A stretch of 64,000 bases of DNA from Actinomycetes bacterium (GTDB lineage: Bacteria > Actinomycetota > Acidimicrobiia > Acidimicrobiales > Ilumatobacteraceae), in NCBI GenBank assembly GCA_029782355.1, contig JAKOUY010000037.1, positions 62,001 through 126,000 on the forward strand. Reading direction: 5' to 3'. Of the stretch, positions 9,014-64,000 are shown in pieces (within the stretch, counting starts at the first letter, position 1; the number at the start of each line of letters is the position of its first letter). Under the pieces are notes generated by a model that saw nothing but the letters and a program-made list of their open reading frames with translations, searched no databases and had not been told where the DNA came from. The translations under genes and the position numbers were made by a program.

Positions 9014-9742
9014 CTACTCGACCCAATCGGTGCGGTCGGCCCGGCTCGGTTGGCGGTGGGTGCGCAGTGGCGACAGGGGAGCATCGACCAGCAGGATTCG
9101 CTGGCGGGCGACCACCAGCTGACGATCGCCTGGCTGCCAGGTGACGTCGGTGCCGTCGGTGACGGCCTGCTCGGCGGCCGCCCAGTCCTGCCAGGTGCGC
9201 ACCGCCCACAACAGCATGACCTCGTCGTCGGCGGCCATCGCCGTGGAGAAGGCGCCGATCAGCTCGAAGCCCGGCGGCGTGCGCCGTTCGAGCTGGTCGT
9301 GGATCCGGTCGAGATACTCGCGGTCGGCGCCCGGCCGGACGCGGATCAGGTCGTGGGCGTAGCACTGAGCATTGATCTGCTGGGCGCACAGTTCGTCGAT
9401 GGTCCGGGTCCACGGCGCCGGACGCATCAGCCGGTCGAGCCCACCGGACCGGAACTGGGCAGCGGCTCCCCACCAGGTCACGAGCGCCGGGTCCTGCGCA
9501 CCGGCCCCGACTGTCTCGATCTCGAAGGATCGGGCCATCCCCGCCCAACTGTCGTGCTCCCACAGGTTGCACACCTGAGGCCACCGCCCGGTGGAGCCGA
9601 GCACGGCGAACACGCCGAAGCACTTCTGGGCCCGCTCCTCCTGCCCGATCGGGCTCCAGTTGGCGGTGATGTGGTGCAGGTAGTTGGCCCGTTGGTGCCC
9701 GATGATGTCGATGAACTCGTGGATGTACGCGCAGCCGTTCAT
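9014..9742 (-). CDS. NIPSNAP-like protein, paralogue of 362-1201
   Basis: A 242-residue protein starting YIHEFIDIIGHQRANYLHHI, the same beta-strand/helix start as the protein at 362-1201. It shares GRWPQVCNLWE, AAQFRSGGLDRLM and a second half beginning YAHDLIRVRPGADREYLDRI. The ATG at 9742 is chosen over an in-frame one 111 bases upstream because homology begins there and the longer form would cross the divergent promoter and its operator. It faces an SDR/hydratase operon, as its paralogue faces a synthetase/SDR operon. Function unknown. Confidence 0.6.
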   Translation of the reverse strand: MNGCAYIHEFIDIIGHQRANYLHHITANWSPIGQEERAQKCFGVFAVLGSTGRWPQVCNLWEHDSWAGMARSFEIETVGAGAQDPALVTWWGAAAQFRSGGLDRLMRPAPWTRTIDELCAQQINAQCYAHDLIRVRPGADREYLDRIHDQLERRTPPGFELIGAFSTAMAADDEVMLLWAVRTWQDWAAAEQAVTDGTDVTWQPGDRQLVVARQRILLVDAPLSPLRTHRQPSRADRTDWVE

Positions 9743-9750
9743 GGGTTCGG

Positions 9751-9773
9751 AGATCGTATCTGATATGCAATCT
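9751..9773. promoter_or_regulatory. candidate operator C, 23-bp imperfect palindrome
   Basis: The cleanest of the related sites: a 23-mer centred on G at 9762, with 8 of 11 arm positions paired (outer arms AGAT...ATCT, inner GTAT...ATGC). Two of the three mismatched arm positions are transitions. It sits 9 bases from the 9742 start and 34 bases before the 9807 start, so it can control both directions. Confidence 0.5.
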
Positions 9774-9806
9774 TGGTCCGGGAGACGGGAAGAGGGAGCG
9801 GAGCAG

Positions 9807-10724
9807 ATGGGGATGCTGGACGGCAAGGTGGCCATCGTGACGGGTGCCGGCAACGGGATCGGCCGGGCTCACGCCATGGAGCTGGCCAAACACGGAGCCC
9901 GCGTCGTGGTCAACGACCTGGGCGGCTCCGCCCGCGGCGACGGCTCCGGCCCGGCCGCCGACACGACGGTCGAGTTGATCCGCCGGCGCGGTGGTGACGC
10001 GGTCGCCGACTACGGCGACGTCGGCGACCACGAGCAAGCCGGCGCGCTCGTCGCCCGGGCGGTGGACACCTACGGACGCCTCGACGTGCTCGTCAACAAC
10101 GCCGGAATCGTGCGCGACGCGGCCATCTGGAACATGGCCGTCGACGACTGGGATCTCGTCATGCGCGTCCACGTTCGCGGCACCTGGAGCTGCTGTCATC
10201 ATGCCGCGGTGCACTGGCGCGGCCGGGCCAAGGCCGGCGAGACCTTCCACGCCCGGATCATCAACACCACGTCCGGGGCCGGGCTCACCGGCAACTTCGG
10301 GCAGACCAACTACGCCACGGCCAAGGCCGCCATCGTCGGGCTGACGCAGACGCTGGCCATCGAGCTGCGCTCGATCGGCGTCACGGCCAACGCCATCGGG
10401 CCGGCCGGTGCCACCCGGATCACGGCGACGATGCCAGGGCGCGACCAGATCATCGAGCCGGACCAGGTGGCCGACGACCAGTGGGAGCCGCTCAATCCGG
10501 CCAACGGCTCGCCGCTCGTCGCCTGGTTGGCGTCCGACGGCTCGTCGATGGTCAACGGCCAGGTGATCCGGGCCCTGTACGACCAGATCATCTGGATGCA
10601 CGGCTGGCGGCAGGGCGCGGTCGTGGCGTCGGGCAACCAGCCATGGGACGCCACCAAGCTGGACGCCATCCTCGGCGCCCGCCTGTTCCAGACCGGTGTC
10701 GAAGCGCTGTACTTCCGGTCATGA
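9807..10724 (+). CDS. SDR family dehydrogenase (3-hydroxyacyl-CoA dehydrogenase-like)
   Basis: A 305-residue SDR with TGAGNGIGRAHA near residues 11-22, NDLGG, VNNAGI and the active site Ser (NTTSGAGL) with YATAK. The sequence order (NDLGGSARGDG..., DTTVELIRRRGG) is typical of the SDR domain of peroxisomal multifunctional enzyme-2-like proteins, which act on 3-hydroxyacyl-CoA. The ATG at 9807 has GGGAGCGGAG upstream; longer in-frame starts would overlap the divergent promoter. Its stop overlaps the hydratase start (ATGA). The pair probably carries out hydration and dehydrogenation steps of a beta-oxidation-like cycle. Confidence 0.87.
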   Translation: MGMLDGKVAIVTGAGNGIGRAHAMELAKHGARVVVNDLGGSARGDGSGPAADTTVELIRRRGGDAVADYGDVGDHEQAGALVARAVDTYGRLDVLVNNAGIVRDAAIWNMAVDDWDLVMRVHVRGTWSCCHHAAVHWRGRAKAGETFHARIINTTSGAGLTGNFGQTNYATAKAAIVGLTQTLAIELRSIGVTANAIGPAGATRITATMPGRDQIIEPDQVADDQWEPLNPANGSPLVAWLASDGSSMVNGQVIRALYDQIIWMHGWRQGAVVASGNQPWDATKLDAILGARLFQTGVEALYFRS

Positions 10725-50802: not shown

Positions 50803-50878
50803 GGGCGTATAGCTCAGTTGGTAGAGCGCTGCCCTTACAAGGCAGTGGTCGGGGGTTCGAGTCCCTCTGCGCCCACCA
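50803..50878 (+). tRNA. trnV: tRNA-Val (TAC); left attachment site of the element
   Basis: Cloverleaf: acceptor GGGCGTA/TGCGCCC, D arm GCTCAGTTGGTAGAGC, anticodon arm CTGCC-CTTACAA-GGCAG with anticodon TAC, T arm GGGGGTTCGAGTCCCTC, discriminator A, encoded CCA 50876-50878. A serine recombinase gene on the other strand ends inside it at 50835, so the 3' part of the tRNA is part of the integration junction. The gene remains intact. Confidence 0.95.
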
Positions 50879-52559
50879 ACCAGTCATTTTCCGAACCCCG
50901 GCCTGCAAAGGCCGGGGTTCGTCGTTCAACGCTCCCGACCGCTGTTGCCAGCATCTTCTCCAAGTCGGTGATCATGCCCTCCGCCTGTTCACGCGCGAAG
51001 TTTCTGGCGGCTTCCAAGACATCAGCGTGAATCAGGAGTTCATACTCTTCGGCCAGCTTCGGCAGGAGCCTGGCTTGTGCACCGACACCGACTCGTTCGT
51101 AGACGGCCTGGTTCATCTCGCGACGTTCCTTCGGTCCTGCAATCTCGTAGCGCTCGGCCAGATCTTCCAGCTTCGACAGCGCTCGATGGATACTGCGCTC
51201 GATCTGTTCTTGGCTGACCTCAGCCTTGGCGAGCTGGGCCCGAGCAGCGGAGAGTCCGGCCGTGATTCGTGTCTGCTCGTCACGTAGTTGGTCGAGGCTG
51301 ATGGCGTCGGCGTAGTGCGCTTGGAGCAGCTTCTGCCGTTCGGCCAGGAGCTGGTCGATCCGGCGCTGTTGTCGCTCGTGTTCCTCAGCGTTGCCCTTCA
51401 TCGAGACAGACAGCTCGGCGTGGATGAAGGCTTCAACTTCGGCGATCCGCTCCCGCGTGAGTGAGACCTCATGGTGCGCTCGGATCATCTCGTCTTCGAC
51501 GGCTGGGATCAGGATTGCCTTCATCTGGCAGTCAGTGCGTTTCCTGCCCCGTCCGATGCAGACGAAGTACGGGTATGTCACGCCGTGGCGGTTCTTGGTC
51601 ATGCTGACCGATAGTCGGCTGCCGCACTCGGCACAGAACACGGTGCCTTTCAGGTAGTGGTGGTACTTGCGGACCTTCTCGCCGCTGGCGGCGTGAGCCG
51701 CAAGCACCGCTTGCACCTGCAGGAACAAAGCTTCAGAGATGAGCGGCTTGTGACTGCCGGGGTACTTGACGCCTCGGTAGGTGACGACGCCGATGTAGTA
51801 GTCGCTGCGCAGCAGCCGGTTGAAGTTGCCGAGCGAAAGCGGCTTGCTCGGTGTCCGTGGTCCACCGGTCGACAGCAGCCCCTTGTCGGTGGCGGCCTGT
51901 AGCAATCGTCGGACTGACCATTCACCGGTGGCGTACTGCTCGAACACCCAGCGCATGAGAGGACCACGTTCCGGATCAATCTCGACCGATCGAACCTCAT
52001 GATGGTCAACGAGCTTGCGGACGTTGATGTAGCCGGTCGGTGCTTTGCCGATGGTGCCGCCGGCCATTGCCTTCTGGGTCGAGCCCTTTAGGACCTCGTT
52101 GGCCAGGTTGCGGGAGTAGAACTCGGCGATCGAGCTCATGATGCCGTGCATCAGAGCACCGGACGGTGTCTCGTCGATGTTCTCGGTGCAGGACACCAGA
52201 CTCGCGCCGGCACTCTGGATCGCCATGTTGATCGTCACGTCGTCAGCTCGGTTGCGGGCCAGTCGATCGACCTTGTGGACGATGACGTAGTTGACGTGTT
52301 CATGGGCGATGAACTCCAGCATCCGCTGCAGTTCGGGCCGGTCGGCGGTCTTAGCGCTCTCACCACGGTCGACGAACTCATCAACGATGTCGGCTCCTAG
52401 CGACTCGGCCTTGCGCTCGCAGGCTTGCCGTTGGGCCGGGATCGAGAAGCCTTCACTGGCACCGCCTCGTTCGGCCTGCTCCTTGGTACTCACTCGGAGA
52501 TAGAAAACGGCCCGCGCGGGGCCGTTTGTCGTTAGGTCGTTTCGCTTGCGCGTGCTCAT
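50835..52559 (-). CDS. large serine recombinase (integrase)
   Basis: A 574-residue serine integrase. The resolvase domain starts VFYLRVSTKEQ with nucleophile Ser24; recombinase and zinc-ribbon domains follow (FCAECGSRLSVSMTKNR...YFVCIGRGRKRTDC), then a coiled coil (about 400-480). It integrates the element by attP/attB recombination. It starts with an ATG overlapping the ImmA stop (TGATG); an in-frame ATG 84 bases upstream is less likely. The last 15 or so residues (VGAEGLEPPTTAL) are encoded antisense within tRNA-Val, so its native C-terminus may be slightly altered by integration. Confidence 0.93.
   Translation of the reverse strand: MSTRKRNDLTTNGPARAVFYLRVSTKEQAERGGASEGFSIPAQRQACERKAESLGADIVDEFVDRGESAKTADRPELQRMLEFIAHEHVNYVIVHKVDRLARNRADDVTINMAIQSAGASLVSCTENIDETPSGALMHGIMSSIAEFYSRNLANEVLKGSTQKAMAGGTIGKAPTGYINVRKLVDHHEVRSVEIDPERGPLMRWVFEQYATGEWSVRRLLQAATDKGLLSTGGPRTPSKPLSLGNFNRLLRSDYYIGVVTYRGVKYPGSHKPLISEALFLQVQAVLAAHAASGEKVRKYHHYLKGTVFCAECGSRLSVSMTKNRHGVTYPYFVCIGRGRKRTDCQMKAILIPAVEDEMIRAHHEVSLTRERIAEVEAFIHAELSVSMKGNAEEHERQQRRIDQLLAERQKLLQAHYADAISLDQLRDEQTRITAGLSAARAQLAKAEVSQEQIERSIHRALSKLEDLAERYEIAGPKERREMNQAVYERVGVGAQARLLPKLAEEYELLIHADVLEAARNFAREQAEGMITDLEKMLATAVGSVERRTPAFAGRGSENDWLVGAEGLEPPTTAL
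50892..50921. terminator. hairpin just inside the tRNA-Val junction
   Basis: CGAACCCCGGCC (50892-50903) and GGCCGGGGTTCG (50910-50921) are perfect 12-bp arms with a 6-base loop, 13 bases after the tRNA CCA. It reads as the tRNA terminator, though it also lies in the coding tail of the recombinase gene. No T-run follows. Confidence 0.65.
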
Positions 52560-53182
52560 CAGGATGCCTCCAGCAGAACCGGTGCAGTTGATGGCAGACG
52601 ATTGAAGATGCGGCGGCGCGGGATCGGTCGGGCGTAGCTCCACGACTTCTGCAGCGGGATGGTGGCTGAGCGTGCTTGGCGGTCAACCAGGCCGAGTGTT
52701 TCCAGTCGACGGCGCATGGCGACGGTGCTGACGTCGAAGACGCCAGCCAGCAGGGCGAGATCGTGCTCGCCTTCGCCCCACAGGCGTTTGACCCAGCGCT
52801 TCGGCATCAGCAGGCAGGCGGCGAAGTAGTCGCAGATCTGCTCGATCTGCTGAACGGCGTCGATGCGGGACTGCAGGTCACGGTAGGTCGTGGTCAGCAG
52901 CGGTGCATCGAGAAGATGCTTGAACTCATGGGCCAGTGTGAAGCGCTGACGAACCAGCGGTTCGGATGCGTTGATGCGGATGCGCCAAGCGCCGTATAGC
53001 CACTGCGTAGAGCCCGAGGCGGTAACGGACTTGTCGATCTTGATGTCGACGCGGGGGAGTGCGCCGAGGAGGTAAAGGTCGAAGCCTGGGCGATCGGCGA
53101 CATCGAGCAGTGTGCGCAGGCGGTTGGCCTGTAGCTCGGCAAGGCGCAGCGCTTCGTGTGGTCGGAGTGACCGGGATGGCAT
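52559..53182 (-). CDS. ImmA/IrrE-type metalloprotease, 5' end cut by IS
   Basis: As present, 207 residues from an internal Met at 53182. The zinc motif HEFKH (His85, Glu86, His89) and surroundings (QRFTLAHEFKHLLDAPL, CDYFAACLLMPKRWV) are typical of ImmA/IrrE/DUF955 antirepressor proteases that cleave a cognate XRE repressor. The original gene started at 54496 with a further 14 residues and a strong ribosome site (AAAGGAGGT); the IS at 53204-54472 separates that start from the rest. The remaining Met may allow some translation, but its promoter and coupling to xre are lost. It overlaps the recombinase start by one base. Confidence 0.88.
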   Translation of the reverse strand: MPSRSLRPHEALRLAELQANRLRTLLDVADRPGFDLYLLGALPRVDIKIDKSVTASGSTQWLYGAWRIRINASEPLVRQRFTLAHEFKHLLDAPLLTTTYRDLQSRIDAVQQIEQICDYFAACLLMPKRWVKRLWGEGEHDLALLAGVFDVSTVAMRRRLETLGLVDRQARSATIPLQKSWSYARPIPRRRIFNRLPSTAPVLLEAS

Positions 53183-53203: not shown

Positions 53204-53228
53204 GGGACTGCCGCGCGCGGAGGTGACA
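53204..53228. repeat. left terminal inverted repeat of the IS
   Basis: 25 bp beginning GGGACTGCCGCG and ending GGAGGTGACA; identical to the reverse complement of the right end. The termini are not the TG...CA usual for many IS3 members. Confidence 0.88.
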
Positions 53229-53271
53229 TCTGATGTGTGGTGCTGGGAGGCACCGCTGAGAGGATGTTCAC

Positions 53272-53565
53272 ATGCCCAAGCCGTATCCGAAGGAGTTCCG
53301 GGAGGATGTCGTTCGTGTGGCCCGGAGTCGTGAGCCTGGTGTGCGGATCAAGGACATCGCGCACGATTTCGGGATCACCGAGTCGTGCCTGACGAACTGG
53401 ATGGCCCGCGCCGATCGTGAGGACGGGGTTCGGCCCGGCCCGACCACGAGCGAGCTGGCCGAGTTGCGTGACGCGAAACGCCGGATCCGGATGCTCGAGC
53501 AGGAGAACGAGGTCCTGCGCCGCGCCGCTGCGTATCTATCTCAGGCGAACATCAGCCCAAAATGA
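53272..53565 (+). CDS. IS3-type OrfA (transposase N-terminal HTH protein)
   Basis: A 97-residue protein with an HTH of the transposase-8 type (YPKEFREDVVRVARSREPGV, IKDIAHDFGITESCLTNWMAR), followed by a leucine-zipper-like coiled coil (ELRDAKRRIRMLEQENEVLRRAAAYL). It recognises IS ends. Its stop overlaps the orfB start. Confidence 0.92.
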   Translation: MPKPYPKEFREDVVRVARSREPGVRIKDIAHDFGITESCLTNWMARADREDGVRPGPTTSELAELRDAKRRIRMLEQENEVLRRAAAYLSQANISPK

Positions 53566-54440
53566 TGTTCCCGCTCGTCCGCGAGTTGGCCGTCGACGGT
53601 GTCCCCGTGACGGTGACGTGCCGGGTCCTCAAGCTCTGTCGCCAGCAGTACTACCGGTGGCTCGACCAGCCGTTCAGTGATGCCGAGCTCGACGAAGCCT
53701 GGTTGGCGAACGCGATCTTCGACGCTCACCGTGACGACCCCGAGTTCGGCTACCGGTTCCTCGCCGACGAGGTCCGCCACGCCGGGTTCGAGGTGTCGGA
53801 CCGGGTGGTGTGGCGGATCTGCCGAGACAACCGGTGGTGGTCGGTGTTCGGCAAACCCAAGCGTTACAAGGGCGCCAAGCCGGGTGTGCCGGCCCATGAC
53901 GACCTCGTCCGCCGCAACTTCACCGCGACCGCTGCGAACCAGGTGTGGGTCACCGACCTGACCGAGCACTGGACCCTGGAAGGCAAGGTCTACCTGTGTG
54001 CGATCAAGGACCTGTACTCGAACCGGATCGTCGGCTGGGCGCTCGACTCGCGTATGAAGGCACGGCTCGTGGTCGCCGCGATCGAGATGGCCGTCGCCCG
54101 ACGAGGCGGTGACGTGACCGGCTGCATCCTTCACTCGGACAGGGGCAGCCAGTTCCGCGCGAGGAAGGTGCAACGCGCCCTCACCCGCCACCGGATGGTC
54201 GGATCGATGGGCCAAGTCGGCGCCGCCGGCGACAACGCCGCGATGGAATCGTTCTTCGCGCTGCTGCAGAAGAACGTCCTCGACCGGCAACGCTGGAACA
54301 CCCGCAACGACCTCCGCATCGCGATCGTCACCTGGATCGAACGCACCTACCACCAACGCCGACGACAAGCAGTCCTGGGCCGCTTGACCCCAATCGAGTA
54401 CGAAGCCATCATGACCCCACAGACGGCAACCGCCGCCTGA
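53562..54440 (+). CDS. IS3-type OrfB (DDE transposase)
   Basis: A 292-residue rve-domain transposase. The DDE triad is visible: Asp in VWVTDLTEH, Asp in ILHSDRGSQF and Glu in DNAAMESFFALLQKN. HTH_21 residues (YRFLADEVRHAGFEVSDRVVWRICR) precede it. It begins at tandem ATGs within the orfA stop, so either coupled reinitiation or a -1 frameshift could make the product. The frame is intact, so the IS is probably still active. Confidence 0.93.
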   Translation: MMFPLVRELAVDGVPVTVTCRVLKLCRQQYYRWLDQPFSDAELDEAWLANAIFDAHRDDPEFGYRFLADEVRHAGFEVSDRVVWRICRDNRWWSVFGKPKRYKGAKPGVPAHDDLVRRNFTATAANQVWVTDLTEHWTLEGKVYLCAIKDLYSNRIVGWALDSRMKARLVVAAIEMAVARRGGDVTGCILHSDRGSQFRARKVQRALTRHRMVGSMGQVGAAGDNAAMESFFALLQKNVLDRQRWNTRNDLRIAIVTWIERTYHQRRRQAVLGRLTPIEYEAIMTPQTATAA

Positions 54441-54447
54441 CCCAATC

Positions 54448-54472
54448 TGTCACCTCCGCGCGCGGCAGTCCC
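54448..54472. repeat. right terminal inverted repeat of the IS
   Basis: 25 bp perfectly complementary to 53204-53228, followed by the GAT target duplication at 54473-54475. Confidence 0.88.
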
Positions 54473-54496
54473 GATCGTGGTCTGTGTGGTGTTCAT
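54473..54496 (-). pseudogene. severed 5' end of the immA gene
   Basis: From the ATG at 54496 the minus strand reads MNTTQTTI, then runs into the IS. Joined across the IS it continues IFQLRQLMPSRSLRPHE into the ImmA frame at 53182 without shift. The ATG overlaps the xre stop (ATGA), and AAAGGAGG lies before it. Confidence 0.8.
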
Positions 54497-54984
54497 GGTT
54501 GACCTCCTTTCACGGGGTGTTGGTTTATGCGGGTGGCCGGCTTGGGCGTTGCCGAGGCCTTCGACGGTTGGCGCTTCTTGGCGCTTGCCGTGCGTTCCTG
54601 GGCAAGCCGCTGTCTCGTTGGTGACGAGATCGCGGTGGTCGGCTCGGTGCCCGGCTGCTTGGCGGTCACGCGCCGGATGGTGCGTTCGACTGCTGCGATC
54701 TGCTCATCGTCGAGCTGGTACTTGGCACGGAAGTAGGTGGGAAGTGGCGGAAGCCCAGGGCCAGTGCCAGCGGTCTTCCAGGCCAGCTCGTACAGCTCCT
54801 CGGGATCGATGTCCAGAACCCGAGCGATGGTATTCAGCGTCTCCTCGGTTGGAGCGCTGACCTCACCGGCTTCGAGAACGTAGAGGTACGAACGAGCAAG
54901 ACCTGTCCGCTTATGCATCTGGTACAGGTTGATCCCGGCCTGCTCACGCAGGGCCTTCAGGGCCTTGCCGAACGGTTCGGTCAT
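54493..54984 (-). CDS. XRE family transcriptional regulator
   Basis: A 163-residue regulator. The Cro/C1-type HTH is at about residues 8-62 (LKALREQAGINLYQMHKRTGLARSYLYVLEAGEVSAPTEETLNTIARVLDIDPEEL). The C-terminal half is basic and rich in Ser/Thr/Ala/Pro, likely the part cut by a partner protease. Next to it lies an ImmA-like protease gene, as in the ImmR-ImmA switch of known integrative elements. An inverted repeat 30 bases upstream (55014) probably mediates autoregulation. Confidence 0.88.
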   Translation of the reverse strand: MTEPFGKALKALREQAGINLYQMHKRTGLARSYLYVLEAGEVSAPTEETLNTIARVLDIDPEELYELAWKTAGTGPGLPPLPTYFRAKYQLDDEQIAAVERTIRRVTAKQPGTEPTTAISSPTRQRLAQERTASAKKRQPSKASATPKPATRINQHPVKGGQP

Positions 54985-55013
54985 TGCAGAATCCTCATTG
55001 CCATGACTCTATT

Positions 55014-55030
55014 GTCCTACAACGTCGGAC
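55014..55030. promoter_or_regulatory. candidate XRE operator O3 (GTCCTA-N5-TCGGAC)
   Basis: A 17-bp inverted repeat with one arm mismatch, same arm length and spacer as the two sites at 61820 and 61858. On the minus strand a -10-like TAGAGT follows it closely (55005-55010), so a bound repressor would cover the xre promoter. Confidence 0.6.
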
Positions 55031-55068
55031 AGTTGGCAAGGTCATGGATGGTGTGGAATGGACAACAC

Positions 55069-56574
55069 CTACGCGTCACCTGTCACGACCCCCTCGATCT
55101 CTCTAAGCACTTCGAGAACCATGCTAAGGCTGGTCCGAGCCCAGTTTTTGGCCTCGTCCTCGTCGGTCGCTATCCAGTCGAGAAGCGCGTCAAGCATCTT
55201 TGTCTTCGCGGCCTGTCGCGCCGAACCTTTTGGAATCTCGTCAAGCTTCTTGCCTGCCGAGGCCCGAACGTGACCGGGGTAGATATCCTCGAGGGCGGCG
55301 ATGCCATGCGTACTAAAGCGGTCGGGGGGCCAGTCCTTGAACTTCGTCTTGAGCTTTTCGACCACTCGTCGGCCCGCCTCATCGTCGTCCAAGATAACCC
55401 AAGCGCGCCCGTGAAAGTGTTCGTCGAGATGAGCGAAGGTCACAAGGCGTCGGTAAGTGACGAATCTGGGCTCAACATCGTCTGCACCGTCAGACGCGAT
55501 CGATCGCAACCGCCCTTGAAGCCTCGGCGCGAACCAGGGCACTAGATGCTCTCGGACCAGCGTTTCCAAGGACGACTCCTCAAGTATCAGCCACGCGTCG
55601 TAGATCATCAGGTCCGATGCATCGTTTCCCAGAGCCCGTAGAAGGCGAATTCGTTCTCGGGTCGTCTCAGTAGGCGAAATCGACGTCGTATCGATGCCGT
55701 TGTCGTCGCGCGTGCTGGTGACTTCGAAGACGCAAGTATCTATGGCGCTTGCGAGGTGGCTGACTACGATATGGGAGTGAGTGGTCACGAAGATCTGATT
55801 TCTGATCGAGACTTCCACCAATACATCCAGCAGTGCCTTCAGAGCAGATGGGTGGAGGTCGGTCTCGGGCTCCTCAAACAGAATGAGCTTGTGCTCCGCG
55901 CTGAATAGGGTGGCAAGAGCGCCGAGCGCCGAGTGCACCCCTTCACCCATTGCTTCAATATCTAAGCTCAAGTGCTGATCGACATATCGGCCTAAGACCT
56001 GTCCGTCTCCGACGGTAATAACGTCCGGTACGAAACCGATCACATTCTCGCAAGCAAGCTGGAATCGTTCGCGTTCTGGATAGTTGGTCGATAGAAGCCG
56101 CTGAATCTTGGCCGTCAGGTTGTGCATTGACGACGATATTTCAGACATCAACGGCTGATTAATTGCCCTTACATACGGTTTCCACCTGCGGCGGCCGAGA
56201 ATTGGATAGATCGGGGCAGCTGGCTCGTGTCCGGACCATCGGCCATGGGATGTACTTACGCCGCTGCTAATCGTAATCTGATTCTGCTCGCGGACGCCTG
56301 AGACCACGATTTCTGGGTCTTGACCCCCAAGGTCACGTACGGCCTGTGTGGGATCGTCAACCGTCATGCGTATTTCGAACTCTGCCGAGCGTAGTCGAGT
56401 GAGCTCATCAACCGTGTCCTCCGAAGTGCCAGCCTGAATGGATGCGAGGGCCATCAGCAGCGCCGACTTGCCCGAGTTGTTGCGACCTACGAACACGTTG
56501 ACGTGGCCCATGCTGAGCCAGCCGCTGTCCGCGATCGACTTGAAGTTCTTGACTCTTAACGTCTTGATTCTCAT
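55069..56574 (-). CDS. OLD-like ATPase with TOPRIM nuclease domain
   Basis: A 501-residue protein. The AAA/ABC-type ATPase has Walker A VFVGRNNSGKSALL near residue 25, signature-like EAMGEGVHSALGAL, Walker B LILFEEPETDLHPSAL and the H-loop THSHIVVS. The C-terminal TOPRIM part has ILEESSLETLV (Glu) and VILDDDEAGRRVVEKL (Asp pair). This order is that of OLD-family nucleases, including phage-defence proteins such as GajA. No UvrD-like partner is adjacent. Base composition is clearly lower in GC than neighbours, suggesting recent cargo. GAGAGGAG precedes the ATG at 56574. An anti-phage role is a hypothesis. Confidence 0.83.
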   Translation of the reverse strand: MRIKTLRVKNFKSIADSGWLSMGHVNVFVGRNNSGKSALLMALASIQAGTSEDTVDELTRLRSAEFEIRMTVDDPTQAVRDLGGQDPEIVVSGVREQNQITISSGVSTSHGRWSGHEPAAPIYPILGRRRWKPYVRAINQPLMSEISSSMHNLTAKIQRLLSTNYPERERFQLACENVIGFVPDVITVGDGQVLGRYVDQHLSLDIEAMGEGVHSALGALATLFSAEHKLILFEEPETDLHPSALKALLDVLVEVSIRNQIFVTTHSHIVVSHLASAIDTCVFEVTSTRDDNGIDTTSISPTETTRERIRLLRALGNDASDLMIYDAWLILEESSLETLVREHLVPWFAPRLQGRLRSIASDGADDVEPRFVTYRRLVTFAHLDEHFHGRAWVILDDDEAGRRVVEKLKTKFKDWPPDRFSTHGIAALEDIYPGHVRASAGKKLDEIPKGSARQAAKTKMLDALLDWIATDEDEAKNWARTSLSMVLEVLREIEGVVTGDA

Positions 56575-56629
56575 CGCCCGCTCCTCTCCGCCGAGCATCA
56601 TCGCGCAGGGGTGCACGGCAGCTGGCGCC

Positions 56630-57247
56630 TCACCCTCTCGCGTCGAACAGGTACACCCCGCCGTCCTCGGCGTCGGCTGACCAGATGTCGCCGGACAGCT
56701 CGAGGTCGTGGGCGAAGCCCTCGATGTCGAGCTTGACGTACGGCCGGAGGTACTGCGGTACCACCCGCTCTATCTCGTCGATGTAGCCAAGGTCATCGAG
56801 CACGTGCTCGGCGTAGTCTTCGGTGGACTGCCACTGCCCGTGGTAGTGCTCCTCGAACTGCTCGATCTCGTTGCCTGCTGTGGTGCCGACGTAGCTGATC
56901 CAGTGAGCGAACGGCATGCCGTGCTCAGCGATGCCAGCTGCGATGCGGGCAACTCGACCAAGCGATTCGTACTCGTCGATTCGAAGCGGGCCGAAGCCTT
57001 CGTAGTCGTGGATCGCCCACTCCTCGGCGGGCAGGCCTTCGGCGGCTGCTGTCGGCGATGCGGCCCGCATCGCGGTGGTTGCGTCGCTCAGCTGCTCGGT
57101 GGACTGGGCAGCATCGAGCCATTGGCCGTGCAGGATGCCGTTGTTGTAGTCGCTGAGGGATGCCACGTAGATCCGTGGTCCTTCAGGCAGGTTCGTTTCC
57201 GGGTTGGGAGGTAGTTCACCTCCTTTCTCCCTGTCGTTGTTGTTCAT
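56630..57247 (-). CDS. ardA: antirestriction protein ArdA
   Basis: A 205-residue acidic protein with the ArdA start PRIYVASLSDYNNGILHGQWLDA, AIHDYEGFGPLRIDEYESL and the C-terminal acidic EIEQFEEHYHGQW. ArdA mimics B-DNA and inhibits type I restriction enzymes, protecting an element on entry into a new host. AAAGGAGA precedes the ATG at 57247. It lies between the OLD-like gene and the transfer genes, as expected for early-transfer protection. Confidence 0.92.
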   Translation of the reverse strand: MNNNDREKGGELPPNPETNLPEGPRIYVASLSDYNNGILHGQWLDAAQSTEQLSDATTAMRAASPTAAAEGLPAEEWAIHDYEGFGPLRIDEYESLGRVARIAAGIAEHGMPFAHWISYVGTTAGNEIEQFEEHYHGQWQSTEDYAEHVLDDLGYIDEIERVVPQYLRPYVKLDIEGFAHDLELSGDIWSADAEDGGVYLFDARG

Positions 57248-57350
57248 GGTTGTTCTCCTTTGGTTGGTTGATGGATTCCTGGTGGCCAGAGCGGTGCGCC
57301 GACGATCGGCACTGCGCCCCTCGCGCTGGCGAACGCTTGGCCGGTCGCGT

Positions 57351-58415
57351 TCAAGCGGCCCGAGGCGCCTGGACGCTTCCCGCGTCGTCAGCCTTGCGAC
57401 GTTCGGCGACGAGCCGCTGCTCGGCCAGCGCCACGTACGTCGGATTGAGCTCGACACCGAGCCAGGCGCGGCCATGAGACTCGGCCACGATGCCGACGGT
57501 CCCAGCTCCGAAGAACGGATCGAGGACCACGCCAGTACGGGCAGGTTGGCTGCAGCTGCACTGCGGTCGTAGCTCACCGACGACGGCCAGATGCCCGAGC
57601 GTGCGGGCCGGCTGGCGCTTCCAGGCCACTGCACAGTCTTGGCAGACCCTCTCCGGACAGGTGGCGAGCAGCGGCCGCTCGACCAGCTGCCGTGGAAAGG
57701 TGGCGAAGTGCGCACCGCGGAAGTTGGCGGTCGGCAGGAGCCAAACGTCGCCGGGGTTCTTGCCGCGAGGGTGACCGACGTGCCCGGCGCGCTTCATGGC
57801 GACAAGGCCGGAGTTGCTTCCAGCCAACGGTCCGGCCCAGTGCGGAATCTCGACCGGACCAGCCGATCCGCGTGCTGCGCCAGTTGACATGGCCGCCTCG
57901 CCACCAGGTTGCGCCGTTGCTGCTCTCTGGCTGCGGTGTGGCACGCGGATGGCGTCGAGGTCGAAGAAGTAGTTCGGTGAGCGGGTCAGGAAGTAGATGT
58001 ACTCATGGGTGCAGGCCAGTCGATCGGCGACGCTGTTGGGTATCGGGTTGGTCTTGGCCCAGATGACCTTGTTGCGGATGATCCAGCCGTCTTGGGACAG
58101 TGCCAGTAGCAGTCGTTCCGGTGCGAGCAGCAGGCTCTTGGCGGCAGCGCCGCTACGAGCGTTACGGCTGTAGCTGTCGCCCAGATTCAGCCAGACGGAG
58201 CCGTACGGCGTCAGCACCCTGGCAAGTTCGCTGAAGACTGCTCGCAGCTCGTCGACCCAGCCGTCGACGTGCGGTTCCAGGCCAATCTGGCGCTGCTCGC
58301 CGTAGTTCCGCAGCCGAAAGTACGGCGGGCTGGTGATGACGCAGTCGACGGAAGCGGTTGGCAGGTTGGCCAGTTGCTCGCGGACGTCGCCCTCGATGAT
58401 TCGGTTGGTATTCAT
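57351..58415 (-). CDS. DNA methyltransferase (N4/N6 type, beta-class order)
   Basis: A 354-residue site-specific DNA methyltransferase. The catalytic motif TSPPY near residue 28 comes before the SAM-binding motif DPFFGAGTVG near residue 300, giving the beta-class order. A Cys cluster (CPERVCQDC...CSCSQ, about 257-290) may bind zinc. TSPPY is compatible with N4-cytosine or N6-adenine methylation. There is no restriction gene next to it, so it may protect the element from host restriction. AAAGGAGG before the ATG lies inside the preceding gene, and the start overlaps that gene's stop (ATGA). Confidence 0.9.
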   Translation of the reverse strand: MNTNRIIEGDVREQLANLPTASVDCVITSPPYFRLRNYGEQRQIGLEPHVDGWVDELRAVFSELARVLTPYGSVWLNLGDSYSRNARSGAAAKSLLLAPERLLLALSQDGWIIRNKVIWAKTNPIPNSVADRLACTHEYIYFLTRSPNYFFDLDAIRVPHRSQRAATAQPGGEAAMSTGAARGSAGPVEIPHWAGPLAGSNSGLVAMKRAGHVGHPRGKNPGDVWLLPTANFRGAHFATFPRQLVERPLLATCPERVCQDCAVAWKRQPARTLGHLAVVGELRPQCSCSQPARTGVVLDPFFGAGTVGIVAESHGRAWLGVELNPTYVALAEQRLVAERRKADDAGSVQAPRAA

Positions 58416-59338
58416 GATTCACCTCCTTTCAGGTGGTTTAGGGATTGCTCGGTCGTGAAGACCGTGAACAGCTGGCTGTGCGGCGGCGGCAGCCGGCCGA
58501 TCTCCCGCTCGATGGCCTTCTGCCGTGGTTCGTCCGGGACGACAAACAGAACGTTCGGGAAGGCCGCGCCGCCCGCCTGCTCCACGCCAGCGGCGAAGGC
58601 CTGGGCGTAGGTCTGCAGCTTGCGTCGGATGGCCGGCAGGTGCTCGGTTGCTCGGTCGATCTCCAGGAACGTGACCTGCTCGTAGTCGCCAGCTTCCACC
58701 CGAACGAAGGCGTCAGGCTTGAGCACGTTACGTCCGCCGCCGAGGCCAGCGAACCGGCGCCAGCAGTCGGGTTCGGCCTCAAAGCCCAGTAGCTCCAACT
58801 CGCCTCGCTGGTCGGCTTCGTGCAGTTGGACGTATGTTTCGGCGATGGCCAGGACGTGATCTTGGAAGCGCAGTGACGGTTCCCATGGTCGCCTTCGGCG
58901 TTCACCACCAGCTGGACCGCCCGATGCAAGGAGGCGTTGTCCGCTGGTGTCGAGGGTGTAGATGAATCCAGCCGATCCAGCGTAGAGCCCACCAACGCGT
59001 CGCTCCAGTCGTGCTAGGAGCCGAAGTGAATGAAGACGGGACAAAGAGCGGCGACAACGACGTGCAGCTGTCAGAGCTGAACAACCATTGAAGTGGAGTC
59101 GCTCGATCTGCTGTGTGGTCAGTAACCGGAGCGCTCGGATGTCGCGGAGGATTGCCATGTCTCGTTGGCTCAGCTCGGCCGACTCCGCCGCCCGCCGCCT
59201 CGCCGCTGCCCGTGGGGGAGCGGGCTTCTTCGGAAGCGCGATAGTCCTTGGCGTTTTCGCGCTGGATCTGGCCTTCTGCCAGGTCGGACGACGGGACTTC
59301 GACGAGGCGAGCGGTACGTCGACCGGTACAGCGCTCAT
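58412..59338 (-). CDS. replication-relaxation family protein
   Basis: A 308-residue protein of the replication-relaxation type found on actinobacterial plasmids and integrative elements. A winged-helix part (LSQRDMAILRDIRALRLLTTQQIERLHF) is followed by an alpha/beta core with EQVTFLEIDRATEHLPAIRRKLQTYAQAF, whose E-x-D-x-x-T and Lys resemble a nuclease-like fold. A basic Lys/Arg/Pro-rich N-terminus leads. It overlaps the methyltransferase gene and the upstream ATPase gene by 4 bases each. It may act in element DNA processing or transfer. Confidence 0.82.
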   Translation of the reverse strand: MSAVPVDVPLASSKSRRPTWQKARSSAKTPRTIALPKKPAPPRAAARRRAAESAELSQRDMAILRDIRALRLLTTQQIERLHFNGCSALTAARRCRRSLSRLHSLRLLARLERRVGGLYAGSAGFIYTLDTSGQRLLASGGPAGGERRRRPWEPSLRFQDHVLAIAETYVQLHEADQRGELELLGFEAEPDCWRRFAGLGGGRNVLKPDAFVRVEAGDYEQVTFLEIDRATEHLPAIRRKLQTYAQAFAAGVEQAGGAAFPNVLFVVPDEPRQKAIEREIGRLPPPHSQLFTVFTTEQSLNHLKGGES

Positions 59339-61530
59339 GAGGCTCTCCGGGGTCGGCGACCGCCGCCTTGACGATCATCGGTGCCAAGCTGGCGGGCGCG
59401 GATCTGCTCGTCGATGGTTGAGCCCGGCGTTCCGAAGTTCAGACGACTGCGCTTCACAACGTCAGCGAGCGATCCAAGTCCGGGGTCGAATGGCAGGGTG
59501 GTCAGTGATCCGGGTGAGGTCGACGTGCCGTCGACCATCATCCGAGCGAATGCCTCGTAACGGGCCAGGCCGCCGATGTCCTCCGGCGTGATGCCACCAC
59601 CGAGCAGTCGGGCCAGATGAGCCGCGTCTTCGCTGCCACTCTGGAAGACGACACGGGAGCGGGCGTTCTGCAGGACGGCGCTGCGGACCTCTGGGCGGTT
59701 GAGCTGACCGAGATGTTGGTGCGCCAGCGTCAGCCCAAGGCCGAGACCACGGGCTTGGGCGAGAACATCGCCAAGGTCGGTTGGTAGGTGGAGATAGTTC
59801 TGGAACTCGTCGAGGTAGACCATCACCGGATGGCGGCGTTCGGCTGGAATCGCTGTGCGTTCCTGAGCGGCCTGCCAGAGCTGGGCCACGACCAGACCAC
59901 CGAGCAGTGCTGCGGTCTCCGGCCCAATGCGACCTGCCTGTAGCGGCACGAGTACGACTCGACGATGCGTGAAGACATCACGCAGTGAGAAGCGTGGTTC
60001 GGCCTGGCCGATCATCTGCCGTACGCCGGGCCGCAGCGTGAAGGCGCGGACCTTGTTGAGTACCGGTGCAACGACTTGTGATCGCTCGGCTTCAGACAGG
60101 CTCTCGAACCAGTGCCAGAACGGCCCGATAGCCAAATCGTCCCGCGTGGTACCGATGACCGTCGCACGGAAGCGAGCGTCGGTCAGCAGCCGCGGCAGCT
60201 CGACCATGGTCATGCCGGGTGAGCGAGCCAACGTCAGGAGTGAGGCATGGAGGACGTCCTGGGTCCGCGGTCCCCACGAGCTGGCGAACATCGAGCGCAT
60301 CAGGTGCACTAGTGCGTCGACGGCTACATCGGCATCGCGCCCACCGAGTACCTGCAAGCCGACCGGCGCGACGTCGTCGCTTGGATCGAGCAGCACCACG
60401 TCGTCACGACGATGGTCAGGTATGCGGTCGAGGATGTCGCGCACGACGTCACCTCTCGGCTCGATCACCACGACACCTCGTCCGGCCTGGATGTCTGCGG
60501 CGGCTAGGCGGGTCAGGAGCGTGCTCTTGCCGACACCGGTTGGCCCGATGAGATGGGTGTGCTGCAATGCATCACGCACGGGTTGGATAACCAGCCCCTC
60601 ACGACCTGGATAGGTCGCCTCCCCGATTACCCGTAGCGGTCGGCCGGCCTCTCGTGCCTTGGTAGCTGCGGTGGACGACACAACCGACGATGACGCGAAC
60701 GGCAGCTCACGGTGGCCGGAGTAGGTCACGCCGGCGGCCACCGGGCCACCAACCGGCCAGGCCAGCAGCGTGGCGAACTCGACGGCATTCAGGTTGCACG
60801 GCCAGGCGATACGAGGCACCAGCAACTTGTCGTAGCCATCCAGGACCCACCAGCTCGGCCGTAGGCGTGGTTCGAGATGAGCACTCGGTTCGCTCGTCAA
60901 GCGCAGCTGACCGAGCACGGACGTGGTGAGCGACTTGCGGCGTGCCTTGGTCGCGGCGTGGATGACGATGCGGCCAAGGGCACCGAAGACCGGCTCACGT
61001 TGTTTGTCGTTGGCCTTCTTGGCCTCCTCATTGTCCAGCCGTGCTGGCTCGGTCACGCGCTGAATGAAGGGTCGTGCCGAAGTTGAGATGTCGGCCTTGG
61101 CGACCCGTCGGGGGAGTGGCGGTCCGAGCAGCCATTGGACCGTGACCTGTTCGTTACCACGCAGGCTCTGGCAGACGCCGAGTAGACCGCGGGCGACTTC
61201 CTCGGCCACGTCGGTGCGCAGCGGACGCCGCTGATGACTGAGCTTCAGCTCGATGCCGCTTCTCGGCAGCGGTGAACGGGCGGAGGAGTTGACCTCGGTC
61301 GTCCGCACGCTCGGCAGGTGCGCCCGGAGCTGATCGATCACCAGCCGGGCGTGGCGGTCCGCCACGCGCATCGTCCACGAGACTGGGCCAGCTGTCGCCG
61401 TCAGCTCGAAGCACAGCGGGAAGCTCGGCCCGAGGAGCCGGTCGTTCGGCCGGATGGTCAGCGAGCGTACGAAGGCGGAGACGTCGTCCACGTCGAGATT
61501 GCTCGGGAAGTGCAGGTTCCAGCCAGTCAT
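59335..61530 (-). CDS. conjugative coupling-type ATPase (TraG/VirD4-like)
   Basis: A 731-residue protein. The N-terminal 300 residues are of unknown fold. The motor domain has Walker A LIGPTGVGKSTLLTRL near 340, VVVIEPRGDVVRDIL, Walker B VMVYLDEFQNYLHL, LGLGLTLAHQHLGQL and FQSGSEDA. It resembles type IV coupling proteins that feed DNA to a conjugation pore, although no N-terminal membrane span is obvious, suggesting a soluble or membrane-recruited variant. It overlaps the relaxation gene by 4 bases and the small upstream gene by one. Confidence 0.85.
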   Translation of the reverse strand: MTGWNLHFPSNLDVDDVSAFVRSLTIRPNDRLLGPSFPLCFELTATAGPVSWTMRVADRHARLVIDQLRAHLPSVRTTEVNSSARSPLPRSGIELKLSHQRRPLRTDVAEEVARGLLGVCQSLRGNEQVTVQWLLGPPLPRRVAKADISTSARPFIQRVTEPARLDNEEAKKANDKQREPVFGALGRIVIHAATKARRKSLTTSVLGQLRLTSEPSAHLEPRLRPSWWVLDGYDKLLVPRIAWPCNLNAVEFATLLAWPVGGPVAAGVTYSGHRELPFASSSVVSSTAATKAREAGRPLRVIGEATYPGREGLVIQPVRDALQHTHLIGPTGVGKSTLLTRLAAADIQAGRGVVVIEPRGDVVRDILDRIPDHRRDDVVLLDPSDDVAPVGLQVLGGRDADVAVDALVHLMRSMFASSWGPRTQDVLHASLLTLARSPGMTMVELPRLLTDARFRATVIGTTRDDLAIGPFWHWFESLSEAERSQVVAPVLNKVRAFTLRPGVRQMIGQAEPRFSLRDVFTHRRVVLVPLQAGRIGPETAALLGGLVVAQLWQAAQERTAIPAERRHPVMVYLDEFQNYLHLPTDLGDVLAQARGLGLGLTLAHQHLGQLNRPEVRSAVLQNARSRVVFQSGSEDAAHLARLLGGGITPEDIGGLARYEAFARMMVDGTSTSPGSLTTLPFDPGLGSLADVVKRSRLNFGTPGSTIDEQIRARQLGTDDRQGGGRRPRRAS

Positions 61531-61733
61531 TACGCGGCCTCCTGATCCGGTGCCGCGGGCGGCGTGGTTGGCTGGTCCTGCACGGATGCCACGCGCTCGG
61601 CTTCCAGCTCCTGCATGGCGATTGCGATGAGCGCCCGCGCCAACCGGCGGAGGTCCGGCTCCGTGCGCAGGCGCACGCGAACGACCAGTTGATCGTCCAC
61701 CTCCACTTTGCTGATTCGTTTGCGTCTGGACAT
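61530..61733 (-). CDS. small protein, first gene of the transfer operon
   Basis: A 67-residue protein, MSRRKRISKVEVDDQLVVRVRL..., with a basic start, one beta-rich stretch and an acidic/Pro-rich tail. AAAGGAGG lies 9 bases before the ATG, and its stop overlaps the coupling-ATPase start (TAATG). It may be a small accessory DNA-binding protein; the family is not recognised. Confidence 0.65.
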   Translation of the reverse strand: MSRRKRISKVEVDDQLVVRVRLRTEPDLRRLARALIAIAMQELEAERVASVQDQPTTPPAAPDQEAA

Positions 61734-61819
61734 GAAGCTTCCCTCCTTTCTGTTACTGGTGGCGTCGGATCAGGTCGACGGGCTGCCACGCAAGAGTGCC
61801 CGGACTCCTGACTTGATAT

Positions 61820-61836
61820 GTCCTGTATCGCAGGAC
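61820..61836. promoter_or_regulatory. candidate XRE operator O1 (GTCCTG-N5-CAGGAC)
   Basis: A perfect inverted repeat with 6-bp arms and 5-base spacer, 87 bases upstream of the start of the transfer operon. The arms differ from O2 and O3 only in the innermost base (G/C in place of A/T). Confidence 0.65.
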
Positions 61837-61857
61837 AGTTGACGTGTTCCTTAGTAT

Positions 61858-61874
61858 GTCCTAGTCGTTAGGAC
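61858..61874. promoter_or_regulatory. candidate XRE operator O2 (GTCCTA-N5-TAGGAC)
   Basis: A perfect inverted repeat of the same design as O1, whose centre is 38 bases away (between three and four helical turns). Both are preceded by the tetramer TATG on the plus strand. A tandem pair suits cooperative repression of the transfer operon. Confidence 0.65.
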
Positions 61875-62043
61875 GGTGCAATGGTGCTTGTCCATTCCAC
61901 AACAGCGATCGGTAGGCCGCCGTCGGTGGTGTGTTGCCAACGAGCCGATGCTCAGTGCGGCGCGTCGGCCGGGGCCATGCATGCCGAGCGCTAAGCGGTG
62001 GTCGCTGCGGCAGGAACCAACGACGTGAGAGTGACCGTCGCCC

Positions 62044-63907: not shown

Positions 63908-64000
63908 ATGAGAGCGAAGAAAATTACTCCGATAGTAGATCTCTCCGGCGATACGTCCGAAGCTTTCTGCACGGGTCAGAACGATCCGGCTTTGGTCAGT
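63908..64000 (+). CDS. N-terminus of an AT-rich gene, cut by window end
   Basis: From the ATG at 63908 the frame is open to the edge (31 codons: MRAKKITPIVDLSGDTSEAF...). GAGATCGAG precedes it, and a -10-like TATTATATT lies 20-30 bases upstream. Base composition is much lower in GC than the rest, as in the OLD-like gene, so it may be further recent cargo. The product cannot be identified. Confidence 0.4.
   Translation, partial: MRAKKITPIVDLSGDTSEAFCTGQNDPALVS

Follow-up and report, generated by a model that had tools for sequence, protein, structure and literature searches.

Introduction

In ICEBs1 of Bacillus subtilis, the repressor ImmR is described as having six sites across both promoters and as being inactivated by ImmA (PMC8960796), for which the role of antirepressor is given (PMC8960796, PMC6540685). 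The subject of this work is an integrated element lying in a 64-kb window (the whole stretch of DNA that was analysed) of contig JAKOUY010000037.1, from an actinomycete of the family Ilumatobacteraceae (GCA_029782355.1); this element is hereafter called WIN. As in ICEBs1, a small XRE repressor, here a predicted one encoded by xre, lies beside an M78-type peptidase (immA), and several sites are spread over the promoter of the repressor gene and the transfer (tra) promoter, those of WIN and of its relatives in genomes G314 and G1208 being predicted from sequence only. However, immR and the transfer genes of ICEBs1 are counter-transcribed, whereas xre and tra of WIN are both found on the minus strand, about 6.5 kb apart; counter-transcription appears to be a feature of ICEBs1 and not clearly of every ImmR/ImmA module. 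Moreover, unlike ICEBs1, several of the elements considered here have an operator of their own together with a shared second dyad (motif 2), and immA of WIN is interrupted by an insertion sequence (IS).

CapP is the peptidase partner of CapH, which acts on a defence system, and IrrE reportedly cleaves DdrO, going by the title of a cited reference. Both CapH and DdrO are XRE repressors near the WIN XRE in sequence or fold (6rnz and 6jq1, 7t5u). DdrO acts on DNA-damage response genes (PMC12565409); unlike DdrO and CapH, the WIN XRE has the transfer operon as its predicted target. The same source surveys the palindromes of XRE regulators, and GTCC does not figure in its main text. Two operators near one transfer promoter, as in WIN, are described for Rco of pLS20 and PrgX of pCF10, together with tetramers and DNA looping (PMC6540685); neither is indicated for WIN. 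Furthermore, the family Replic_Relax (PF13814) has been equated with the MobC relaxase superfamily, and two streptococcal elements, IME_Class_8, are reported to combine a MobC relaxase, a VirD4 coupling protein and a serine integrase (PMC5357655). All three modules (a PF13814 relaxase, a VirD4-like coupling protein and a serine integrase) are present in WIN, in a compact order as in the IME_Class_8 elements described; in contrast to these, WIN comes from a different phylum and has ArdA, a DNA methyltransferase and the XRE-ImmA pair inside its module. In the texts retrieved by a search of the open-licence literature, no description of this element family or its operators was found.

Results

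The 17-bp inverted repeat GTCCTR-N5-YAGGAC is very probably the operator of the element's own ImmR-like XRE repressor, through which xre and tra would be silenced. The first-pass annotation had reported two perfect copies before the tra operon and one copy with a single mismatch before xre, and all of them were recovered: GTCCTGTATCGCAGGAC at 61820-61836, GTCCTAGTCGTTAGGAC at 61858-61874 and GTCCTACAACGTCGGAC at 55014-55030. The features concerned are as follows:

54493..54984, minus strand: xre, Cro/C1-type helix-turn-helix (HTH) protein of 163 amino acids, predicted repressor (HTH_19 2.8e-11, HTH_3 1.4e-10)
55011..55039, minus strand: predicted xre promoter TTGCCA-17-GACAAT (promoter scan), its spacer filled by the operator
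55014..55030, no strand: predicted xre operator, GTCC-N9-GGAC, differing from the tra pattern at 1 position, with a G314 counterpart at equal position
61820..61836, no strand: predicted tra operator, gene-proximal copy, 0 mismatches
61853..61881, minus strand: possible tra promoter TTGCAC-17-CATACT around the distal operator, assigned by eye and below the scan cut-off
61858..61874, no strand: predicted tra operator, distal copy, 0 mismatches, 38 bp from the gene-proximal copy

Frequent occurrence of the repeat elsewhere in the chromosome had been named as a finding that would speak against a regulon. Such frequency was not observed: in the genome-wide pattern search, sites with 0-1 mismatch were found at the two promoters and at one other place. 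In particular, the exact pattern occurred at the two tra sites and nowhere else in the 3,785,116 bases of the window genome (40 contigs, 98% complete), while the backwards control pattern gave 1 forward and 1 reverse match. When a leading T was added and up to 1 mismatch was allowed, the three element sites were found together with C35:103264. About one exact site is expected at this genome size and composition (0.92 per genome, from the window base composition), which would fit palindromes that are chance or tandem-duplication remnants without function; therefore, one exact site is unsurprising, but two of them 38 bp apart at one promoter are surprising. Also in favour of chance, the window-wide count with up to 2 mismatches was not above that of shuffled sequences (11 matches vs. 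7.95, standard deviation 2.85, with 19 of 100 shuffles reaching 11), and therefore only the sites with 0-1 mismatch stand out.

At xre, the operator lies within the spacer of the promoter given by the scan and overlaps its -10. TAGAGT, previously proposed as the -10 of xre, does adjoin the xre site, but the hexamer pair given by the scan makes GACAAT the likely -10. The position of TAGAGT reads TAGACA in G314, where GACAAT is found at the equal place and the promoter, assigned by eye, is TTGTCT-17-GACAAT with the operator equally placed. No tra promoter of WIN was reported by the scan at its cut-off, and the tra hexamers were assigned by eye (TTGCAC-17-CATACT in WIN and TTGACT-16-CATACT in G314). 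It is very unlikely that the XRE is an activator or dual regulator of tra and not a repressor: conjugation regulators may act both ways at their own promoter, as described for Rco of pLS20 (PMC6540685), but the predicted xre operator lies between -35 and -10, a polymerase-occluding position, and the upstream place usual for activators is occupied by motif 2, not by the operator.

With the XRE as probe, only the window genome and G314 matched among 395 genomes of the class, and only the window genome among 396 of the phylum; no match was found in the plasmids or viral contigs searched. A search with the coupling protein found relatives in 14 genomes among 395 in the class, 35 among 397 in the order and 3 among 221 in the family; the window's own genome is included each time, and the samples overlap. 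Longer stretches were taken around many, not all, of these loci. The gene order traD, relaxase, (DNA methyltransferase), (ardA), xre, immA and integrase recurs across the related elements, with losses at some loci. The elements of G314, whose host belongs to the same order as that of the window, and of G1208 are designated L029 and L106, respectively, and those of G1114 and G925 are L107 and L087. In L107, the xre-immA pair is inverted and xre is apparently frameshifted (about 9653-10173), and L087 is without recognisable xre or immA.

The comparison of equivalent promoters in related elements, suggested earlier as a check, revealed different, element-specific repeats at the xre and tra promoters of G314 and of the held-out G1208, and nowhere else. 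A 20-kb stretch of G314 contained exactly two GTCC-N9-GGAC sites: GTCCCATCCAATGGGAC precedes xre, and GTCCCATTAAATGGGAC precedes the tra operon. With respect to WIN, the inner bases are altered on both arms together and at both promoters. Allowing up to 1 mismatch, GTCCCAT-N3-ATGGGAC was found in the whole of G314 (4.9 Mb) before xre and before tra only (control, 0). The elements L106 and L107 were fetched after the pattern had been described; of these, L106 showed GTTGCATCCGTGCAAC before tra and GTTGCACGCTTGCAAC before xre, and GTTGCAY-N3-TGCAAC appeared in G1208 (4.7 Mb, 79% complete) at those two promoters only (control, 1 match). The window genome, G314 and G1208 all have their repeat at these same two promoters, and the patterns searched in G314 and G1208 have no match elsewhere; this argues against chance or duplication remnants, an explanation that is scarcely credible even though 7 of 14 relatives are without a shared palindrome. 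The same repeat at both promoters, changing from element to element, is the pattern that a single regulator encoded by the element and controlling both would leave. Moreover, the GTCCTR repeat gave no more than chance-level matches in L026 and L027, which is what one would expect if the operator differs wherever the XRE does. The tra operators are paired in WIN, L050 and L051 (38, 32 and 34 bp apart) and perhaps in L026, not in every element.

For a wider comparison, the best palindrome common to the tra and xre regions of each element was scored against that of mismatched elements (14 elements, 180 cross pairs). The elements' own scores were 28, 28, 27, 26, three of 25, three of 24 and four of 23, while among the cross pairs 9 scored 25 and 2 scored 26; scores of at least 26 were thus reached by 4 of 14 own pairs vs. 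2 of 180 cross pairs (rank-sum P-value of 3.3e-4). The two cross pairs scoring 26, L029 with WIN and L051 with L048, are each between elements whose XREs are related. Shared operators scoring at least 25 were found in WIN, L029, L026, L048, L050, L051 and L089, and the held-out L106 scored 26. Some loci did not enter this count: the tra leader of L086 could not be identified, L096 and L099 offered no sequence upstream of tra, and no xre was listed for L087 and other loci. The two cross pairs of L052 with L053, whose XREs are 81% identical, were also dropped.

Several results weigh against a single XRE at both promoters. No shared palindrome was found in 7 of the 14 elements (L052, L053, L055, L057, L058, L085 and L088), their scores of 23-24 being within the cross range, and the score of 25, the level of L026, L048 and L050, was also reached by those 9 of 180 cross pairs. 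The regions for the 14-element scoring were narrowed once the sequences had been read, individually so for L048, L051 and L052; when wide regions of uniform extent were used in 11 elements, L029 scored 28, WIN 26 and five others 25, and 4 of 110 cross pairs reached 26. Furthermore, the held-out L107 showed no shared operator, its best score (24) coming from motif 2 itself, and the tra promoter hexamers are weak. Overall, the proposal of one xre-encoded regulator at its own and the transfer promoters is partly supported: the same repeat precedes both, element-specific repeats occupy the same two places in G314 and G1208, shared palindromes were found in 7 of the 14 elements compared, and likeness of the repeats goes with likeness of the HTHs. 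A regulon of predicted ImmR-like repressors with element-specific operators is well supported by the comparison.

The XREs of WIN and of G314, which has the nearest related element, are 49% identical over the matched stretch, and their HTHs 50%. Among the 21 pairs formed by the seven elements with shared operators (L106 being outside this count), the HTH identity was highest for WIN-L029 (50%) and L048-L051 (41%), followed by L029-L051 (39%); the two highest pairs are also the two that share half-sites, GTCC and ATGCG, respectively. Their recognition-helix stretches are LARSYLYVLEAG and IARSHIYRLEDG in one pair, and VRSSTVVRFEQG and VPNSTIVRLERG in the other. An alignment of the XREs was made without those of L055 and L088. 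Operator specificity thus appears to follow the XRE protein, as repeat likeness tracks HTH likeness. The XRE structure model, from an alignment of 2 sequences only, showed a confident five-helix HTH with helix 3 at residues 31-38. Profile matches included SinR, DdrO, an Xre regulator of ICEBs1 and an immunity repressor, and the fold search returned first 9a7f, an integrative model of poor fit (root-mean-square deviation of 16), and then SinR, C.BclI, C.AhdI, DdrO, CapH and P22 c2 among the nearest solved chains. It is unlikely that some other protein, of the element or of the host, reads the repeat and that the XRE just lies nearby. Motif 2 is found at the same promoters, so more than one factor may act there; against another reader, the repeat varies between elements, unlike the expectation for a shared host factor, its likeness follows that of the XRE HTH, and the module proteins scanned, a subset of the open reading frames (ORFs), included no further annotated HTH regulator.

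Upstream of the operator lies motif 2, a 17-bp dyad with the consensus GTTGTGGA-W-TCCACAAC, which the first-pass annotation had missed; it is new here and deserves attention more than the operator itself. Its copies in WIN are the following:

55050..55066, no strand: motif 2 upstream of the xre promoter, 14/17 to GTTGTGGAWTCCACAAC
61887..61903, no strand: motif 2 upstream of the tra promoter, 14/17 to GTTGTGGAWTCCACAAC

Scores of at least 13 out of 17 were reached in 21 of 34 tra or xre/integrase regions (18 elements) vs. 0.3 expected from first-order shuffles, an excess that is partly circular, as the consensus was derived from the scored sequences themselves; the remaining regions scored 12 (4) or 10-11 (9). 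Such scores were present in at least one region of 14 of the 18 elements (not L055, L057, L086 and L096), whose XREs differ, and in both regions of 7 of the 16 elements having both. In the stretch scanned, the two promoters were clearly the two best places for motif 2 in WIN (14 kb), L029, L048, L053 and L087; in L051 and L052, one of them ranked first and the other shared second place. The best places in the held-out elements were also the xre and tra upstream regions, with scores of 15 (xre) and 12 (tra) in L106, and of 15 (xre) and 13 and 13 (tra) in L107. The gap from the end of motif 2 to the tra operator was 11-12 bp in WIN, L029, L048, L050 and L051. Within the window genome, matches to GTTGTGGAATNNNCAA (up to 1 mismatch) were confined to the xre and tra promoters, and for this reason a DnaA box, an UP element or a host global motif is not favoured.

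In L087, motif 2 precedes tra and the integrase gene and, as no xre is recognisable there, it is therefore independent of XRE in that element. The relaxase is a candidate reader of motif 2 only because its gene is present in all 14 elements reaching 13 and its N-terminal region has conserved positions. The Replic_Relax model was poor N-terminally (predicted local distance difference test below 50 at residues 44-154), and no solved relative was convincing, the one match (E 0.016) being to an unrelated protein. Upstream of tra in L054, L056 and L091, motif 2 is missing (best scores of 10, 12 and 11 out of 17), which by eye fits a different relaxase helix and is confounded by shared ancestry. In L092, a 14/17 match was found at -929.

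The interruption of immA, also missed before, was due to a 1,269-bp IS lying 8 codons into the gene:

52559..53182, minus strand: main part of immA, M78/IrrE-type peptidase (PF06114 1.5e-17)
53204..54472, plus strand: IS inside immA, with 25-bp perfect terminal repeats, a 3-bp GAT duplication, and HTH_Tnp_1 and rve ORFs
54473..54496, minus strand: immA codons 1-8, the ATG overlapping the xre stop codon (read from the sequence)

The IS ORFs matched HTH_Tnp_1 (2.1e-9) and rve (1.2e-21), a two-ORF layout of the IS3-family type. Contigs C14 and C29 begin with pieces of the same IS, and further pieces lie in C13 and C23 and, at 80%, in C35. The xre stop and the immA start of WIN overlap as ATGA, and the corresponding ORFs of L029 overlap by 4 bases. 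Downstream of the IS, the ORF of the catalytic part of immA is intact, and the HExxH residues H85, E86 and H89 are invariant in 15 aligned ImmA sequences (that of L053 being left out). If ImmA is the antirepressor, the WIN copy may be hard to induce, because the IS interrupts this presumed antirepressor gene.

The remaining genes of the module are as follows:

50835..52643, minus strand: large serine integrase (PF00239, PF07508, PF13408), the 3' end overlapping tRNA-Val 50803-50878
55069..56574, minus strand: AAA_15/OLD-like ATPase (PF13175 2.5e-24)
56630..57247, minus strand: ardA, antirestriction gene (PF07275 3.6e-35)
57351..58415, minus strand: N4/N6 DNA methyltransferase (PF01555 7.6e-40)
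58412..59338, minus strand: Replic_Relax, MobC-type relaxase family, 308 amino acids (PF13814 5.8e-43)
59335..61530, minus strand: traD, VirD4/TrwB-like coupling protein, 731 amino acids (TrwB_AAD_bind 8e-10, T4SS-DNA_transf 5.4e-7)
61530..61733, minus strand: small first gene of the tra operon, 67 amino acids (phmmer counterparts in L029, L048 and L107)

The module lies entirely on the minus strand, in the order 67-amino-acid gene, coupling protein, Replic_Relax, DNA methyltransferase, ArdA, AAA/OLD-like ATPase, xre, immA and integrase, whose gene terminates within the tRNA-Val gene, as in an integrated element. No copy of tRNA-Val pieces longer than 10 bp was found to the right of that gene within the 60 kb taken. 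The 67-amino-acid protein had no match in Pfam or NCBIfam, and NCBIfam gave nothing above its cut-offs among the ten module proteins scanned. The AAA_15/OLD-like ATPase gene stands between ardA and xre in WIN and is not there in L029, and is likely to be inserted cargo, possibly for defence. To the right of the module, at about 63908-69923 in window numbering and so past the window end at 64000 (L003:13909-19924), 2OG-Fe(II) oxygenase, ATP-grasp and methyltransferase genes were found, possible cargo as well, and a 739-amino-acid protein in the same stretch had no Pfam match. No VirB4 (mating-pore) genes appeared among the proteins scanned, a subset of the ORFs of an element whose right end was not located.

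Discussion

The sequences show the sites, their genome-wide rarity, their conserved positions, the element-specific change at both promoters of several elements and the recurring gene order; binding by the XRE, repression and cleavage by ImmA are inferred. An XRE dimer in the -35/-10 spacer of the xre promoter would limit its own synthesis, and dimers on the two tra operators would keep the small gene, traD, the relaxase and the genes that follow silent. Where relatives are intact, the ImmA peptidase would cut the XRE and relieve repression, a release step that in WIN may be lost or altered by the interruption of immA. Each element would have its own repressor/operator pair, and the upstream part of the promoter that carries it, motif 2, is often conserved. 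It is possible, though rather doubtful, that these promoters are built of two parts: a fixed GTTGTGGA-W-TCCACAAC dyad, whose reader would be a protein shared by the whole family (perhaps Replic_Relax itself, through its N-terminal part), and a quickly changing repressor/operator pair that defines the immunity group. If so, elements of different immunity groups could share a cell and a DNA-processing factor while being blind to each other's repressor.

Overall, this analysis provides a directly testable regulon for a mobile-element family in the little-studied Acidimicrobiia. The natural series of predicted repressor/operator pairs on a partly common promoter would be useful for studying changes in XRE specificity and the division of integrative elements into immunity groups. 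Moreover, motif 2 is a pointer to a regulator that has gone unrecognised, and the IS within immA suggests that WIN may no longer have its release switch.

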